DNA from: a virus
Reading direction: 5' to 3' (one strand)
IMG/VR virus record: IMGVR_UViG_3300020735_000042
Span: 1 to 30,900 of that record
Length of the DNA: 30,900 bases
Below are positions 272 through 27,687 of this stretch, piece after piece; position 1 is the stretch's first letter; every line of letters starts with the position of its first letter. The notes beneath the pieces were generated by a model. It saw nothing but the letters and a program-made list of their open reading frames with translations, had not been told where the DNA came from and made no database searches. The position numbers were made by a program, and so were the translations under genes.

Positions 272-643
272 TTAAAAACCTTTACCGTTATCGCACACTA
301 AGTCGTAATCAATTGTTAATTCTTCGCCAGAATATATGTCCATAGCAGCATAATGAATATACTTAGTAGGTGCTGTTAAATTAGGTTCACTATTGTGATT
401 AATGAACCTAACATTGTCTGCGAAATGAATAATTTTATCTAAATCTTTATCATAACAATACATATAATCAAAGTTTTCTCTGGTTATACTGTCATAGTTA
501 TAATTATGTAGGGCTGGTAGCCAACCATCAATAATTGAATCATGTTCCCAAATTAATTGACCTTTGGTAATGAATTCACCGGCAAATAACCCAATACCAT
601 GAAGAAGACTCTTATCAAGATAAGTTTTAACTTTCATTGTCAT
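272..643 (-). CDS. SET-domain protein (putative protein lysine methyltransferase)
   Basis: A 123-residue protein with the SET-fold hallmarks in order: HGIGLFAGEFITKGQ (about 15-29, the SET-N strand region), RFINHNSEPNL (79-89, the NHxxxPN SAM-binding/pseudoknot motif) and GEELTIDYD (106-114, with the catalytic-type Tyr). SET enzymes transfer methyl from S-adenosylmethionine to lysine; the target here is unknown. The protein is short and has no cysteine-rich post-SET tail. Its ATG overlaps the nrdA C-part stop (ATGA), tying it to the nrdA transcript. A second ATG at 637 is possible. Family assignment is firm; activity is inferred. Confidence 0.82.
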   Translation of the reverse strand: MTMKVKTYLDKSLLHGIGLFAGEFITKGQLIWEHDSIIDGWLPALHNYNYDSITRENFDYMYCYDKDLDKIIHFADNVRFINHNSEPNLTAPTKYIHYAAMDIYSGEELTIDYDLVCDNGKGF

Positions 644-1662
644 ATTTTACAACTTTCGCAATCTTCATCGGGTACTTCGCCAGCAGCCAAAGGTGCTTCT
701 TCATATTCTCCTGCCAAATCGTTTGTTTGAAAATAGTATAGCTGTTTGCCACCCAACTTATAAAACATCAACAAATGACCAATCATCTCACTCATCGGTA
801 TCTTTTCATCTTCGTAGAACTTAGGGTTGTACGAGGTGTTAACGGATATTCCTTGATCAATGAATTTCTGGAGAACGGCGCAGATTTTGAGATAACCCTC
901 TGGTGATTTTTGGTCCCAAAGAAGGTCGTATTTTTTCTTGAGCTTTCGTACTTCAGGTACAACCTGCTTAAGTACGCCATCTTTAGACTGTTTGACAGAG
1001 ACCAACGATCTTGGCGGCTCAATACCATTCGTTGCGTTGCTAATCTGTGCCGATGTTTCTGATGGCATGAGAGCCATAAGAGTTGAGTTCCTGATACCAT
1101 ACTTGCAAGCTTTAGCGCCCAACGAAACCCAGTCCATCCGATATGCTGGCGATACGATTTCGTCCAGTTCTCTCTTGTAGGTGTGTATGGGGAACGCACC
1201 TTGGCTGTATTTTGTTTCATTACTCTTCGGACAGGCACCTTTTTCCTCCGCTAGATCAACTGATGCTTTAATCAAATAATAAGACCAAGCCTCTGCAAAC
1301 GCATGAAGCTTATTCAATCCATCGTAATCAATGTGCTGATAGCTAAGATCATTGCGAGCCAACCAATAAGCGAGGTTAATAATACCGACACCAAGAGGTC
1401 GTCTGGCCATAGTGGAATTTTTAGCAGCTTTGACAGGGTAATCCTGATAATCAAGAAGCTCGTCAAGAGCACGTACAGCAAGTGTACAAGGTCGTTCAAA
1501 GTCAGCAGGATCACGAATTTTTCCCCAGTTTATGGCACTCAAAGTGCACAGACTAATTTCTGCATCTGATTCACTCTCAAACTCTTCACCAAGAACATAA
1601 ATATACTCATCATCGTCATTTCCTATTTCTGTTACAACTTCAAAGTTAAATGGTAGATTCAT
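640..1662 (-). CDS. nrdA: ribonucleotide reductase class Ia large subunit, C-terminal fragment (split NrdA)
   Basis: This 340-residue protein matches the E. coli NrdA C-terminal third: ISLCTLSAINWG (C39, equivalent to C462), ALDELLDYQDYPV, NSTLMALMPSETSAQISNAT, the radical-transfer pair Y309-Y310 (Y730/Y731) and the terminal D-C-E-S-C-K-I with C335/C338, the cysteines that pass reducing power to the active site. It lacks C225, C439 and E441, which lie in the separate upstream gene at 2293-3756. The first ~33 residues have no counterpart I recognise. It has its own ribosome site (AAGGAAAAAAGAAA) and starts inside the end of the GIY-YIG gene. Function requires assembly with the N-terminal half; the same arrangement is known from Aeromonas phage Aeh1. 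Confidence 0.93.
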   Translation of the reverse strand: MNLPFNFEVVTEIGNDDDEYIYVLGEEFESESDAEISLCTLSAINWGKIRDPADFERPCTLAVRALDELLDYQDYPVKAAKNSTMARRPLGVGIINLAYWLARNDLSYQHIDYDGLNKLHAFAEAWSYYLIKASVDLAEEKGACPKSNETKYSQGAFPIHTYKRELDEIVSPAYRMDWVSLGAKACKYGIRNSTLMALMPSETSAQISNATNGIEPPRSLVSVKQSKDGVLKQVVPEVRKLKKKYDLLWDQKSPEGYLKICAVLQKFIDQGISVNTSYNPKFYEDEKIPMSEMIGHLLMFYKLGGKQLYYFQTNDLAGEYEEAPLAAGEVPDEDCESCKI

Positions 1663-2257
1663 TTTCTTTTTTCCTTAAATGTTTTGCCAAATTGCCAAGA
1701 TCAAATTCTCTCTTACAACACAAGCAACTAGCTTTTTTTCCTTGTAGATGTTTTGTTCCATGTGGTTCTTTATGTAGTGTATATTTTCCACGTTTCTGAC
1801 CTGTTCTAGCTAGTGTATGTTTCTTTTTAGTTTCTTCACTAACAGGACCAGTTTTTTTACCTTTATTCCAAGGAGTTTGACCTAAATGACCTAAAGAATT
1901 ATTTAACCTATGAGTTTCTGACTGTGGTCCTTTAGACACACCTTTTGTTTTTTTACTCATTGCTTCATAATCTCTATAAGCAGAAGTATCACCACCAGAA
2001 CCATTTTCTTCTATGAAATTAGCCCATTCATCAGATTCTACTATATCCCATAGCTCAGAATAATACAATCCTTTTTCTCTAATGTCTTCAAGATTTTCAG
2101 ATTGAAACAATACTTCAGTTTCAACATCATCACCATACTTGTTTAATTCTCTTTTCCATCTAATACCAGAACCAGAATAGGTATATGGGTTTCTTTCTGT
2201 TTTACCAAGGTATTTTAATCCCGTAACTCTGTGTGTTTTAACGTAAAGTGTAATCAT
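1646..2257 (-). CDS. GIY-YIG homing endonuclease inserted in nrdA
   Basis: A 203-residue protein with an N-terminal GIY-YIG nuclease domain: the two motifs appear as LYVK (4-7) and KYLGKT (15-20), followed by the Arg-bearing helix GIRWKREL and an acidic E/N segment FIEENG. The middle has NUMOD3-like DNA-binding repeats (NSLGHLGQTPWNKGKKTG, then a KKHTLARTGQKRGK segment). The C-terminus carries a CLCC...LAKHLR zinc-finger-like end. It sits exactly between the two nrdA fragments, overlaps the start of the second by 17 bases, and has a strong ribosome site (GGAGGAGG) and its own late promoter, typical of T4 free-standing seg-type genes. Its expected activity is cutting uninterrupted nrdA in a co-infecting phage. 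Confidence 0.88.
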   Translation of the reverse strand: MITLYVKTHRVTGLKYLGKTERNPYTYSGSGIRWKRELNKYGDDVETEVLFQSENLEDIREKGLYYSELWDIVESDEWANFIEENGSGGDTSAYRDYEAMSKKTKGVSKGPQSETHRLNNSLGHLGQTPWNKGKKTGPVSEETKKKHTLARTGQKRGKYTLHKEPHGTKHLQGKKASCLCCKREFDLGNLAKHLRKKENESTI

Positions 2258-2280
2258 AGTTGTGCCTCCTCCTTCACAAC

Positions 2281-2288
2281 TATTTATA
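2281..2288 (-). promoter_or_regulatory. T4-type late promoter for the GIY-YIG gene
   Basis: TATAAATA on the minus strand, 23 bases upstream of the GIY-YIG start and within the 35-base gap after the nrdA N-part. T4 sigma gp55 recognises this octamer. It would give the endonuclease late expression independent of nrdA. Confidence 0.6.
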
Positions 2289-2292
2289 TCCG

Positions 2293-3756
2293 CTATGAAT
2301 TGGGGAGCGGTGTATTTGGGTTATTTTTACGCCAAATCAGATATTTTTGATAATTTTCTTTGGTCATCTTAATATTTTTCTTTACTGGTTTGCCATCATT
2401 GATATCATTTAGTGGTTTAGTGGGAAGGTCGATTTCGCAGCAAAGATTAGACTGATGAATAGGCGCTAGTTCTTTGATGAACGATCCGTGATCATTAGCG
2501 TGATCTACATTCTGCAGATAAATACGTCCGGTATCCTTCCTCTCTTGCATGAATCCTGAGAAGAGTTCAATTGCTGGTATTGTTTTCTTTCTAATTGCTG
2601 AGTTTTGTTCTGCAGACTCGTATAAATTTCTAAACCTGTCAGTATCAATAAAAAAAGAGTCATACAAGTCAGGAACGTCGTTAGGAGAAAAGAGGGTAAT
2701 GTTACCTCCTGTGAGAAGTCTTTCATACATCACCTTATTAAATTGGACACCATAGTCCAAGCCACGAATACGATTGTCTTCTGTACCCTTGTTGTTCTTC
2801 AGTACCAGTAGGTCTTCAACCTCCAAATGCCAAATAGGATAATAAAGAGTTGCTGCACCGCCTCTGACACCGCCCTGTGAACAAGACTTAACCGCACTCT
2901 GGAAGTGTTTGTAAAAGGGTATAACGCCAGTATGCGTAGTATCGCCAGAGCGAATAGGAGAGCCGATAGCACGAATACGACCAGCGTTAATACCAATGCC
3001 AGCTTTCTGAGAAACATACTTAACGATAGAGGAAGCTGTCGCATTAATTGAATCAAGAGAGTCATCTGATTCGATAAGTACACACGAACTGAATTGCTTT
3101 TGAGGGCTACGGAGACCTGCCATAATAGGAGTCGGCAACGAAATTTCAAAAGTAGATGTTGCATCGTATAAATCCCTAACCCATTTTAGCCTTGTTTCTT
3201 TTGGATAGTTGCGGAAAAGAACCATTGCAATAAGCATGTAACAGAACTGAGGTGTTTCGTACACCTGTCCTGTTGAACGGTTCTTGATTAGATACTTGCC
3301 ACGAAACTGCTCCATACCGACATAAGCGATTGAGAAGTCTCGCTTGTGATCAATGTAGCTATTAAGAGTAGCAAGATCAGCAGCAGAATACCATTCTTTA
3401 ATATTACTGTCATAATATCCTGCGCTAACAACATTATCAATATGAACACTAAGATTAGGAACATTATAATCTCCGTAAACCTGCTTTCTGATATGATAAT
3501 TAATGAGACGACCAGCAACATACTGATACCCAGGAGTGTCCTCACTGATAAGATCAGCAGCTGCCTTGATCAAAGTCTCTTGAATGTCTGTAGTCTTAAT
3601 ACCATCGTAAAACTGAATATGCGACTTGAGTTCAATTTCTGATTCAGATACAGCATTGATACCTTCACAAGCCCATGCTACCACTTTGTGGAATTTATTC
3701 AGATCAAGGTGTTCTCGTTTACCGTTTCTTTTTGTTACTTGAATACTCGCCATCAT
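2293..3756 (-). CDS. nrdA: ribonucleotide reductase class Ia large subunit, N-terminal fragment (split NrdA)
   Basis: This 487-residue protein starts with an ATP-cone-like regulatory domain (VTKRNGKREHLDL...KLINYHIR region, ~5-90), followed by the NrdA barrel. Active-site residues fall at E. coli numbering: C225 in QFSSCVLIES, and N437, C439 and E441 in SNLCCEIDLPTKPLNDIND. Colinearity ends at D454; the last 33 residues (lysine/asparagine rich, ending NNPNTPLPNS) match nothing I recognise. C462 and the tyrosine pair are missing and are supplied by the 640-1662 gene. The tandem ATG at 3756/3753 follows TAGGAGAATAAAA. Transcription is from a sigma70-type promoter at 3777-3805. The enzyme reduces ribonucleoside diphosphates for phage DNA synthesis; nrdB is not in the window. 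Confidence 0.95.
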   Translation of the reverse strand: MMASIQVTKRNGKREHLDLNKFHKVVAWACEGINAVSESEIELKSHIQFYDGIKTTDIQETLIKAAADLISEDTPGYQYVAGRLINYHIRKQVYGDYNVPNLSVHIDNVVSAGYYDSNIKEWYSAADLATLNSYIDHKRDFSIAYVGMEQFRGKYLIKNRSTGQVYETPQFCYMLIAMVLFRNYPKETRLKWVRDLYDATSTFEISLPTPIMAGLRSPQKQFSSCVLIESDDSLDSINATASSIVKYVSQKAGIGINAGRIRAIGSPIRSGDTTHTGVIPFYKHFQSAVKSCSQGGVRGGAATLYYPIWHLEVEDLLVLKNNKGTEDNRIRGLDYGVQFNKVMYERLLTGGNITLFSPNDVPDLYDSFFIDTDRFRNLYESAEQNSAIRKKTIPAIELFSGFMQERKDTGRIYLQNVDHANDHGSFIKELAPIHQSNLCCEIDLPTKPLNDINDGKPVKKNIKMTKENYQKYLIWRKNNPNTPLPNS

Positions 3757-24231: not shown

Positions 24232-24454
24232 TTTTTATAATCCTTACAGTTTCTGGATTAGGAGAATATGACAAATATTCTTCAATAGATAAAGAAACAC
24301 ATTTACTTGCAGCACCGAACGATTGTGGCGTTCTAAAAGATTTAGTGGTTACTGCTTCTTTCCTCATTTTTTCTCTATATTTTTCTCTTTTTTCAAAAGA
24401 CATTTTATCAAGTTGATTAAGAGTTAATTTTTTGTTTTTCTTTTTTTTAGCCAA
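24218..24454 (-). CDS. small basic phage protein, TTG start
   Basis: A 78-residue protein (MAKKKKNKKLTLNQLDKMSF, then EKREKYREKMRKEA). The start is TTG at 24454, set by GGAGG six bases upstream and the natural M-A-K-K-K-K opening; no good ATG is nearby. The basic N-terminal half is helical and could bind nucleic acid; the C-terminal half reads TPQSFGAASKCVSLSIEEYL. The start lies within the end of gene 43. No family is recognised. Confidence 0.6.
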   Translation of the reverse strand: MAKKKKNKKLTLNQLDKMSFEKREKYREKMRKEAVTTKSFRTPQSFGAASKCVSLSIEEYLSYSPNPETVRIIKNENN

Positions 24455-25748
24455 AGAAATCCTCCAATGTTGCTCTCTGTTCAACTTCCCAATCGATAAC
24501 TTCTGTGATGGAACGTAATGGTTCTACAAAGCTTTTACTGAACTGCATTTCACGATCAATGTACTTATCAAGTTTAAATTCCTTTGGCAATTCATCAGGA
24601 GTTGCAATAACAGTATCGCCAATAGGATTAGGTTCTTTCAGATAGGCGAACTTAATCTTGTCGCCATCTTGAATCGGTGGAATAGTTTTGATGTTGTTAA
24701 TTTTCAACAAAGAATTAAACATCAGTGCACCCTTTACATGAATAGGAGTGCCCTTGATATATATCTCACGTTTGCCAGCGTATTTAGTCATACCCTTGAC
24801 ACCACGAGGAAATGCTACATCTTCGAAAGGTAAATTCATAAATTCGTTACGAAAGTTTGTGACGAATGTTTGTAGATCAAGCTCAGAACCATTCATAATA
24901 AGAGACAGAGCTTCCTTAATCTTCACACGGCATGCATGAGGAGTTGATGAACGAACAGCTTCAATACCTTGAATTTTCAGCTTCGGCTTATCATACTGTA
25001 CGCCTTCCACGTTCCAAGCATTAAGAATATACATCTTCTTACCACGCCAAATACCTTTGTTGGCGATAGTTTCACGCTTCATTTGCATCTTCTGCTGATA
25101 AGCATTCATCATTCCAGCAAGTTCATCATAACAAAAGTCTAGGTATGGCTGAATCTTTTTTTCACAGAACTGATCAATAAGCTTTACAGCTTCAAGCTCG
25201 TCAGAGTTAGCTGGGATAAGCTTCTCAAACGTGACGTAAATCGAATCTGTATCAGATGCGATTACATAATCAACATCTTTAGTTTTACAGATTTTATTCA
25301 TATATTCATTCATTTTATTTGCAATGTATATAATTGTTATTTGTCCAGAAGTTGTTATAGATTCTGCATTATCGAAATTGAACCATCTGAACCATTGGTT
25401 TGATAGTGCACCATAAAGACTGTTGAGTTGAATTTTTTTAGCCATTTGAAAATTCTTATATCTAGCAACAAGATTTTCATCTTCTTTGCTTTTTGATTGT
25501 TCGTATCTTTGTTGAGATTCTAACATCAATTTTTTATATTTAATTCTGTCATTAAACAGTTTTTCCATAAGAGAAGTCAAAAACCCGTGAGAATCATTTT
25601 TATATAAACAACCATTTGCTGTTGAAGAATATCCTTCGATTTCAGGAATTTTTTTTAAATTTTCTACAACATATTCGGGATTGAAACCATCGATGATATT
25701 TTCAAAAATCAGCAATTGTTCATCAGACACATTTTCAAACAATATCAT
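24447..25748 (-). CDS. 43: DNA polymerase gp43, C-terminal fragment (split gene 43)
   Basis: A 433-residue protein: the fingers, rest of the palm, and thumb of a T4-type family B polymerase. Motif B is KKIQLNSLYGALSNQWF (104-120), motif C VIASDTDSIYVTFE (162-175, with D166/D168), then thumb region ANKGIWRGKKMYILNAWNVE. The end EQRATLEDFFG fits a clamp-binding (PIP-like) tail. Motif A and the exonuclease are absent; they are in the gene at 26413-27687. Its ATG overlaps the end of the HNH gene by 14 bases, with GGAG upstream. Activity must come from assembly of both halves, as reported for split gp43 of some Aeromonas phages. Confidence 0.93.
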   Translation of the reverse strand: MILFENVSDEQLLIFENIIDGFNPEYVVENLKKIPEIEGYSSTANGCLYKNDSHGFLTSLMEKLFNDRIKYKKLMLESQQRYEQSKSKEDENLVARYKNFQMAKKIQLNSLYGALSNQWFRWFNFDNAESITTSGQITIIYIANKMNEYMNKICKTKDVDYVIASDTDSIYVTFEKLIPANSDELEAVKLIDQFCEKKIQPYLDFCYDELAGMMNAYQQKMQMKRETIANKGIWRGKKMYILNAWNVEGVQYDKPKLKIQGIEAVRSSTPHACRVKIKEALSLIMNGSELDLQTFVTNFRNEFMNLPFEDVAFPRGVKGMTKYAGKREIYIKGTPIHVKGALMFNSLLKINNIKTIPPIQDGDKIKFAYLKEPNPIGDTVIATPDELPKEFKLDKYIDREMQFSKSFVEPLRSITEVIDWEVEQRATLEDFFG

Positions 25749-26388
25749 TTCTCCATTTTATAGCTCTAGAAATATTTGAATTGACTCTACCATCTTTTGC
25801 ATAATAATTTTGTCTCGATAACCATTGGTCAAACTCTTGTTTACTCATAGAACAAAACTTTTCTTTAGTTTTTTTTCTTGATTCTGATATTTTATGTGAT
25901 TTTTCGGCAGAACAAGGTTGAGATTTTCTGTTTTTAGGATAATTTATTTTCATTCCTATCTTTTTCGACCTCATTTTTTCTATGCCAATTTTTATTGTTT
26001 CTTCTTTCGCACCAAAATATGATTTGCCTATCATGTCATTTCTTTCTTTTCCTTTTCTGGCTTCATACACAGCCTTTCGCGCTGATTCATACAAAAAGGA
26101 ATTGTTATACGATGGTCTATATGTATCACCTTTACCATAAATCATTATATGAAAAGCTGATGCCATTTTTCTAGTTTTTTGATGTTTCCACCCATATCTT
26201 TTCTTAAATGCTTTCCAAAGCAATTTATGTGCTATGTAATGTTCTCTACATGTAAGATTGACAAGATTTGTGTTTTCACCATATATGGATTTTGGAAAAA
26301 TATGGTGTTTTTCGTATGTGTTATTCTCATCAATGATTCTGTATTTTGCTTTTCTCATCAAAGCAATATAATGTTTTAGATAATTCAT
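25735..26388 (-). CDS. HNH homing endonuclease inserted in gene 43
   Basis: A 217-residue basic protein. The HNH core YEKHHIFPKSIYGENTNLVN (25-44) followed by LTCREHYIAHKLLWKAFKKR gives the His-His, Asn and His of the beta-beta-alpha metal fold. After it lie a basic linker and a C-terminal helical DNA-binding part (SAEKSHKISESRKKTKEKFC, then MSKQEFDQWLSRQNYY). It lies exactly between the two halves of gene 43, with a strong ribosome site (AAAAGGAG) of its own. It probably cuts uninterrupted gene 43 alleles, spreading the insertion. It is unrelated in family to the GIY-YIG enzyme in nrdA. Confidence 0.9.
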   Translation of the reverse strand: MNYLKHYIALMRKAKYRIIDENNTYEKHHIFPKSIYGENTNLVNLTCREHYIAHKLLWKAFKKRYGWKHQKTRKMASAFHIMIYGKGDTYRPSYNNSFLYESARKAVYEARKGKERNDMIGKSYFGAKEETIKIGIEKMRSKKIGMKINYPKNRKSQPCSAEKSHKISESRKKTKEKFCSMSKQEFDQWLSRQNYYAKDGRVNSNISRAIKWRNDIV

Positions 26389-26409
26389 AATAATACTCCT
26401 TTTACAGAG

Positions 26410-26417
26410 TATTTAGG
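26410..26417 (-). promoter_or_regulatory. weak late-promoter-like octamer before the HNH gene
   Basis: CCTAAATA on the minus strand, two mismatches from TATAAATA, overlapping the stop of the gene-43 N-part and 21 bases before the HNH ATG. The position parallels the better octamer before the GIY-YIG gene. Confidence 0.25.
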
Positions 26418-27687
26418 TCAAACCTCTTCTTTTTTTCTCTTTTGCAATCATTATTTTAACAGTTTTTTTGTCTATCATTTTTTCTGGGCTAATGTTGTAC
26501 TGTTGAATCAGGCTAGGATATAGTGATGTCAAGTCAAACGATACAACCCACTTGGACAATCCAATCTTTGGCTCCTTAACATAACCACCAACTAGAGCTT
26601 GATCAACTGACTGCTTTTTGAACTGAGGAATAACAATACGGCGATCCAAGAGATAATTATGAATGATAACATCCCATGGACGAACAGTAGTCATAGTGTC
26701 ATGATAGTTTACCTTAGCATCATATGCTAGCGCCATCACCTGTTCAATAAATTTCAGCTTCTCATCAAGACGATCAACAAGCACACAGTCATAGATATTA
26801 TACTCAATAAACTTTTGAAAGTTATTCTTATACAACTCGAGCAATGAACCATACTCAGAGTAGTCAATTTTCTTCTCGCCCAATTCAATCTGGGAAATAT
26901 AATCTAGCTTATAGCTCTCTTGATTACCGAAGCTGAACTTGCGATACAGTTGATAGTAATCCAAAACAGCAATACCAGCTGGGCTGAATGTTTGATTTTT
27001 CTTACCTTTAAATTCGACTTCCTTCTCATCAAGGATACCCCATGGCGAAAGCTTCTTAGCATATTCGCTACCAAGTATGTTTTTGATACGATTGACTGTA
27101 TACGGGATATCGAAGAACTCGATATTCCATCCAGTAACAACATCTGGTTTCCAAGTAGGATGATTCCACACCTTGACAAACTTATCAAGTAGTTCAAACT
27201 CATCTTTACAACGGATATAATTTGTCTTTTCGTCAGATGTAACAAACTCACCACAGCCGAACACAACGTTCTTGCCATTCTTGCGCAGAGTAATAGCTGT
27301 AATTTCCTTGTCAGCCTTCTGAATATCGGGGAATCCCTCATCAGCTGCACACTCGATATCGATCGTAACTACTGAAACAATCGATGGATCATATTGAATT
27401 TCGCCGTTGTAATAATCATACATGAACACATATTGGTAGTTGTTCAATCCATAATAATCGAAGTTCGATACATCCTTATACTTTTCGCAGAAATCTCGCG
27501 CATCCGAGATAGAATCGAACTGCATCTTATCAACTTGCTTGCCATCCAATGTACGATAAAACCCATCCTTCTTAGGAAGGAAGAGGTATGGCTTATACTT
27601 TTCAATAAACTCTACACGTTGTCCATCTTCATAACCACGTACATAAATTTTATCTCCACGCTGGTAAACGCTGGTGTAAAACTTCAT
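26413..27687 (-). CDS. 43: DNA polymerase gp43, N-terminal fragment (split gene 43)
   Basis: A 424-residue protein: the N-terminal and 3'-5' exonuclease domains and the start of the palm. Exo I is VVTIDIECAADEGFP (106-120, D110/E112), Exo II DVVTGWNIEFFDIPY, Exo III IEYNIYDCVLVDRLDE. Motif A SFDLTSLYPSLIQQYNISPE (383-402) holds the first catalytic Asp (D385). The last ~20 residues (KKTVKIMIAKEKKRRGLT region) do not match family B polymerases I know, and motifs B and C are missing. GGAGTTATA precedes the ATG. Promoter at 27723-27751. Confidence 0.94.
   Translation of the reverse strand: MKFYTSVYQRGDKIYVRGYEDGQRVEFIEKYKPYLFLPKKDGFYRTLDGKQVDKMQFDSISDARDFCEKYKDVSNFDYYGLNNYQYVFMYDYYNGEIQYDPSIVSVVTIDIECAADEGFPDIQKADKEITAITLRKNGKNVVFGCGEFVTSDEKTNYIRCKDEFELLDKFVKVWNHPTWKPDVVTGWNIEFFDIPYTVNRIKNILGSEYAKKLSPWGILDEKEVEFKGKKNQTFSPAGIAVLDYYQLYRKFSFGNQESYKLDYISQIELGEKKIDYSEYGSLLELYKNNFQKFIEYNIYDCVLVDRLDEKLKFIEQVMALAYDAKVNYHDTMTTVRPWDVIIHNYLLDRRIVIPQFKKQSVDQALVGGYVKEPKIGLSKWVVSFDLTSLYPSLIQQYNISPEKMIDKKTVKIMIAKEKKRRGLT

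Follow-up and report, generated by a model that had tools for sequence, protein, structure and literature searches.

The window analysed here, the whole 30,900-nucleotide (nt) stretch of viral DNA from IMG/VR record IMGVR_UViG_3300020735_000042, carries a gene 43, encoding a T4-type family-B DNA polymerase, that is split into an N-part and a C-part with an HNH homing endonuclease gene lying between them. Comparison with related uncultured T4-like phages makes it very probable that the polymerase is a two-chain enzyme, and that the HNH gene is a mobile element that splits gene 43 by homing. The position of the break, in the palm of the polymerase, and the presence of an HNH nuclease at this site are new, as is the comparative evidence, drawn from the sequences of relatives, which points to a mobile split, acquired repeatedly and surviving the loss of its nuclease.

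Anatomy of the split gene

The three genes follow one another on the minus strand in the order gene 43 N-part, HNH gene, gene 43 C-part (Table 1). A preliminary description, made from the letters of the window, had placed the split gene at 24447-27687, with the exonuclease motifs and motif A (D385) in an N-part that stops 22 codons past NISPE, an HNH gene next, and motifs B and C (D166/D168) in the C-part. All of these coordinates hold, and both the sequence and the alignments bear out the assignment of each piece, the HNH gene being recognised by its match to PHROG 655 and the break falling between motif A and motif B. The exonuclease motifs of the N-part are D110-I-E112, D193 and D300, and NISPE ends at E402. 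The two parts jointly span positions 7-852 of the 856 positions of PHROG 262 (gene product 43, gp43), and the stretches that they cover individually (Table 1) show that the polymerase is therefore nearly complete.

The homology of the N-part to RB69 gp43 ends at about residue 428-431, and that of the C-part restarts about 20 residues later, at a YSxxxNG segment. In RB69 gp43, the palm is formed by residues ~383-468 and 573-729, the fingers lying in between. By these domain limits, the alignment with RB69 gp43, proposed in the preliminary description as a check, places the break in the palm, just after NISPE and upstream of the fingers.

The split of gene 43 is confirmed by other contigs. L004 shows the identical arrangement, with proteins 100% identical to those of the window, and the same three-gene order is found in L007-L011, L015 and L018/L019, with 66-81% identity per protein. 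Since the arrangement is repeated in all of these, chance or misassembly is excluded. L153 shows the same break and the same nuclease as far as the contig reaches, its end falling inside the nuclease gene.

Table 1. Positions in the window of the two split genes, their nuclease genes and associated signals
Feature	Position	Strand	Basis or remark
Gene 43 N-part, 424 amino acids (N-terminal and 3'-5' exonuclease domains, palm through motif A/NISPE)	26413..27687	-	PF03104, PF00136; PHROG 262 positions 7-429; RB69 gp43 alignment
Motif A catalytic D385 codon (FDLTSLYPS)	26533..26535	-	Invariant across aligned split N-parts
Novel 22-residue N-part tail, codons 403-424, KMIDKKTVKIMIAKEKKRRGLT	26416..26481	-	Intact alleles lack the tail
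HNH homing endonuclease gene, 217 amino acids	25735..26388	-	PHROG 655, E 5e-31; HNH core kept in five relatives
Ribosome-binding site of the HNH gene, AGGAG	26396..26400	-	Sequence
Ribosome-binding site of the C-part, GGAGAA, within the end of the HNH gene	25749..25754	-	Kept in nuclease-less L005, L016 and L154
Gene 43 C-part, 433 amino acids (remaining palm, fingers, thumb)	24447..25748	-	PF00136; PHROG 262 positions 420-852; RB69/T4 gp43 alignment
C-part head, 39 residues; its start stands in place of the post-NISPE stretch of intact alleles	25632..25748	-	Comparison with intact alleles
Motif B (KKIQLNSLYG, C-part residues 104-113)	25410..25439	-	
Motif C (SDTDS, C-part D166 and D168)	25242..25256	-	
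Co-conversion tract, window versus L005	25266..26532	-	99.6% identical over 678 aligned nt, 3 mismatches, abrupt edges
TTTGACC direct repeat, first copy	26416..26422	-	Left edge of the L005 deletion
TTTGACC direct repeat, second copy	25827..25833	-	Right edge of the L005 deletion
nrdA N-part	2293-3756	-	
GIY-YIG-like homing endonuclease gene inside nrdA	1646-2257	-	
nrdA C-part	640-1662	-	17-nt overlap with the end of the nuclease gene

Between the stop codon of the N-part and the start of the HNH gene there are 24 nt, and the ATG of the C-part (25748) falls in the last 14 nt of the HNH gene, two bases past a GGAG. The HNH core, HH...LT.REHYI.H, is conserved across five relatives; no curated Pfam HNH model reaches its cut-off with the HNH protein. 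The site of insertion is itself conserved, the 8-codon segment at NISPE ranking 21/395 in nucleotide conservation among the intact alleles. The closest deposited match to the HNH protein (55% over the first 107 residues) is encoded at 4947-5648 of L092, Synechococcus phage S-SRM01, where it is located in a sugar-modification gene cluster, outside gene 43.

Intact and split alleles among relatives

The C-part, the nuclease and the N-part served as queries against viral contigs, and about 100 related contigs were compared. The uninterrupted alleles that the preliminary description had suggested looking for are abundant: about 90 loci carry an intact gene 43, and the split loci form a smaller set. 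The intact alleles have roughly 25-35 residues between NISPE and AANGC. In the split form, the N-part has 22 residues after NISPE and the C-part a 39-residue head, so that the split adds sequence and removes none. Overlapping tblastn alignments had given a first hint that the NISPE segment might be duplicated in the C-part head; this was rejected, the head fitting better the later SIDELL stretch of the intact alleles. A near-identity DNA search of a phage collection returned no match, and the best deposited matches of the mobile block are cyanophage gp43 sequences, at 52-54%.

Evidence for homing and co-conversion

The window and L005 share a tract around the break that is almost identical and ends abruptly on both sides (Table 1), while outside this tract the two are only 56-83% identical over most of gene 43 and synonymous sites in the N-part are saturated. 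Such a tract is what co-conversion of the flanking sequences should leave behind after homing, as described for T4 endonucleases (PMC2988022). The comparison of the window with its nearest intact kin (L095/L096, L013 and L028) points the same way: identity, mostly 72-95% in the N-part, falls to ~51-75% from roughly 26650 to 25270, and the block around the break is thus foreign in the window relative to these phages.

In a tree built from the sequence outside the block, the split alleles are dispersed among intact ones and five changes are needed. The window groups with L095, L028, L012, L013 and L017, L005 with L030, L026, L038 and L069, L015 with L058 and L064, and L154 with L077 and others, while L007, L016 and L018 stand together; a single split clade is rejected (approximately unbiased test, p = 5.6e-35). 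In the tree of the block only, by contrast, all seven split alleles form one clade, with a support of 99 by the Shimodaira-Hasegawa-like approximate likelihood ratio test (SH-aLRT) in a quick tree and of 87/93 (bootstrap/SH-aLRT) in a careful one. This scattering outside the block, together with a single clade for the block, argues that the split and its nuclease spread horizontally as one block and converted intact polymerases several times. On a smaller scale, recombination seems to have touched the otherwise ~100% identical alleles of L007 and L016, which differ in a short patch immediately downstream of motif C, at C-part codons ~178-217.

The split outlives the nuclease

The nuclease gene is decayed or gone in three lineages. 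In L005 it is deleted between two copies of TTTGACC; in L016 about the last 76 codons are left, behind a shortened tail; in L154 ~50 nt of the end of the gene remain. The breakpoints differ in the three cases, which therefore represent separate losses. In all three, the stop codon of the N-part at the split, the start codon of the C-part and the adjacent GGAG are kept. L016 and L007, the latter with an intact nuclease, have nearly identical N-parts (0.001 nonsynonymous substitutions per site, dN, and 0.04 synonymous ones, dS). No fused revertant was recognised among the relatives, though a revertant could look like an intact allele.

Between split lineages, the ratio of nonsynonymous to synonymous differences per site (pN/pS) lies at ~0.03-0.36 in the N-part and at 0.10-0.37 in the C-part, and both halves are under purifying selection. 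The N-tail and the C-head evolve faster than the bodies of the proteins, with pN/pS of ~0.4-1.0 and ~0.6-0.9, respectively, in distant pairs; the KxRRG(L) end of the N-tail is retained despite this faster evolution.

Gene 43 is broken in other ways in other phages. In L152/L157, a break near the same palm site holds a LEM-3-like GIY-YIG gene (6299-6964 in L152) in place of the HNH gene. Breaks in the fingers are found in L103/L130, with a Seg-like GIY-YIG gene, and in L139/L149, with another HNH gene, as well as in the Aeromonas phages 44RR, 25, 65 and AS-yj and in the Acinetobacter phage DP45. The unverified record of Pseudoalteromonas phage XG4 (L170) has a break at a third position, in the exonuclease domain near residue 286. 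In a spread of 60 of the ~2,600 deposited gp43 records, no palm-site split was recognised, whereas splits in the fingers and the exonuclease-domain break of XG4 were seen. Breaks thus occur at several sites with unrelated nucleases, showing that the fragmentation of gene 43 is recurrent.

Tail, head and a possible joining of the two chains

In split genes, the N-chain tends toward a basic end (KKRRGLT, EMKKRGIFLT, ELEKRGITVPQ) and the C-chain toward an acidic start (xLTDEELxxL). In a test that was run after the pattern had been noticed, nine roughly independent splits were compared with 283 other phage proteins: the heads are acidic (mean -4.3 versus +0.3, lower than in any of 20,000 resamples), and the tails are slightly basic (mean 2.3 versus 0.4, p = 0.016). 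Of the cases fetched later, nrdA of Aeromonas phage Aeh1 fits the pattern and T4 genes 39/60 do not. This distribution of charges fits the idea, put forward in the preliminary description, that the tail and the head may hold the chains together. By its title, the paper of Crona et al. 2011 (cited in PMC3267527) attributes the assembly of the Aeh1 enzyme to interaction domains derived from the mobile element.

One may tentatively go further and imagine that the mobile unit carries, along with the neighbouring part of the active site, a docking pair, namely the basic tail of the N-chain and the acidic head of the C-chain. Homing would then install a working two-chain polymerase in a single step, and the same solution would have arisen at three gene 43 break sites and in nrdA. 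We regard this as a possible extension, somewhat less probable than its negation.

Interpretation and alternative explanations

The evidence is best accounted for by homing of the HNH gene. This free-standing gene, which lies directly after the motif A/NISPE codons, moves between related phages. During a mixed infection, the HNH nuclease would cut gene 43 of a phage with the intact form; with the split copy as repair template, the HNH gene and several hundred bases of the gene 43 sequence around it would be installed. As one conversion installs a split copy, a one-chain polymerase would thereby become a two-chain one. One message probably yields both chains and the nuclease, translation of the C-part presumably starting from the ribosome-binding site that the nuclease gene contains near its end. 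In the RB69-like polymerase that the two chains would form, one chain would contribute motif A and the other motifs B and C. We infer that the HNH protein cleaves DNA, that the genes are co-transcribed, that the chains assemble and that they have polymerase activity.

Several points weigh against this account. It is built on the comparison of sequences, from which the cleavage by the HNH protein is deduced, and the tree outside the block may itself carry the marks of other recombination. With its 30.9 kb, the window is a fragment, and so is every contig in which a second polymerase was sought. Finally, a structure was predicted for the L005 read-through product, with two TAA codons read as Gln, as a stand-in for the complex. 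The model does fold in the manner of RB69 gp43, which supplies its best PDB matches (template modelling score, TM, 0.79-0.84). The helices of the tail and the head have a predicted local distance difference test score (pLDDT) of 34-57, the junction being modelled with no confidence, and the model therefore gives no demonstration of docking.

The preliminary description had singled out RNA splicing and a second complete polymerase gene as the findings that would speak against a two-chain enzyme. HNH-bearing introns do exist in phage polymerase genes, as in Aeromonas phage 25 (gene 43B) and, going by its annotation, in Salmonella phage maane; were the HNH gene of the window carried by a self-splicing intron, of group I or another type, a single polypeptide would be restored. 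Yet no Rfam intron model matches at gathering level in the window or in the loci of eleven relatives, nor does any lie near the break at permissive E-values. From NISPE to the C-part start there are ~90 nt outside the HNH gene, too short for a group I core unless the gene encodes the core, and an intron would not fit between the parts in L154 (~37-50 nt) or L005 (48 nt and an extended tail), which are still split. Splicing is thus very improbable. We find it only slightly easier to believe that gene 43 is a broken pseudogene, the genome being replicated by the polymerase of the host or by another phage polymerase; such a gene could lie outside the incomplete contigs, but the catalytic residues are all intact, both halves are under purifying selection in lineages whose synonymous sites are saturated, and no other family-B match was found in the window or in nine contigs of relatives, which reach 141 kb, nor any family-A match in the nine contigs, all of these being fragments.

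Two further ways of making a single chain would leave the gene split, and both are scarcely credible. A split intein could ligate the halves after translation, as the Aes123 PolB1 intein of Aeromonas phages does; T4-like polymerase genes with split inteins are known (PMC11923092), and the L007 contig has an intein-like insertion in its nrdA. However, the 22-residue N-tail contains neither Cys nor Ser, the C-head lacks a His-Asn plus nucleophile end, and no intein profile of Pfam, PHROGs or NCBIfam is matched. Equally hard to credit is a fused chain made by ribosomes that bypass the insert or read through it. In the window, a single TAA interrupts the frame that the N-part shares with the HNH gene, and T4 gene 60 illustrates that a 50-nt bypass can occur, but the C-part is in a different frame in the window, its relative frame varies among the relatives, and its own GGAG and start codon are kept in each nuclease-less relative.

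With homing as the preferred explanation, the relatives of the window acquire a particular value. Enzymes left split by a nuclease were previously known as a few single cases, whereas here natural relatives present, for one gene, the intact, recently converted, decaying-nuclease and nuclease-free yet split stages together. This makes it testable whether a selfish gene may permanently fragment an essential replicative enzyme, and what joins the pieces. In addition, the window supplies a naturally occurring family-B polymerase whose break, in the palm, lies at a site unused by the described split polymerases.

A second split gene in the window

The nrdA gene of the window (640-3756, minus strand), encoding the large subunit of ribonucleotide reductase, is likewise split (Table 1). 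Its break lies between the conserved cysteine motifs SNLC and LCTL, at about position 221 of PF02867. In the L007 contig, nrdA (L168) has the intein-like insertion directly after SNLC, and in the L015 and L017 contigs it is intact (L166, L167). The gene thus occurs in three states among close relatives.

Comparison with known systems

The preliminary description was supported in its interpretation of the break site, the HNH gene and the Aeromonas precedent, the last with a restriction: split gene 43 is indeed known in phages 25, 44RR and 65, but their break is in the fingers and not at the palm site.

Genes with split inteins (Dassa 2009), such as Aes123 PolB1, have in common with the window an interrupted T4-like polymerase gene, but the Aes123 PolB1 chains are ligated by an intein, of which the window has no sequence. 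T4 also encodes a core replication enzyme as two chains, in genes 39/60 next to mobA, and a remnant of an HNH gene separates them; T4 mobA is, however, defective, and tail and head there do not follow the charge pattern.

The nrdA-a/mobE/nrdA-b genes of Aeromonas phage Aeh1 are similar in organisation. There too, a free-standing HNH gene splits the gene of an essential enzyme with no intron involved, and the layout matches that of gene 43 in the window: a gap of a few tens of nt, the nuclease gene, and a C-part start that overlaps the nuclease 3' end by 14 nt. The basic tail and acidic head are shared as well, though in another gene and another enzyme. Compared with nrdA of the window, that of Aeh1 is broken at the same profile position, but by the HNH gene mobE instead of a GIY-YIG-like one.

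Close counterparts are also the 43A/43B polymerases of Aeromonas phages 25, 44RR2.8t, 65 and AS-yj and of Acinetobacter phage DP45, which are likewise two-chain T4-type enzymes in which motifs B and C are on a different chain from motif A. Phage 25, like the window, has its two parts separated by a homing endonuclease gene, and its gp43A and gp43B co-purify with polymerase activity (PMC2988022). The Aeromonas-type 43A proteins have ~498-508 amino acids (to 498 in 44RR and 25) and end in the fingers, whereas the break of the window is ~70 residues upstream, in the palm; moreover, the nuclease of phage 25 is a Seg-like GIY-YIG enzyme and that of the window an HNH one. Whether the nuclease caused the split was left unclear for phage 25 (PMC2988022), while for the lineage of the window both intact kin and a conversion tract are available.

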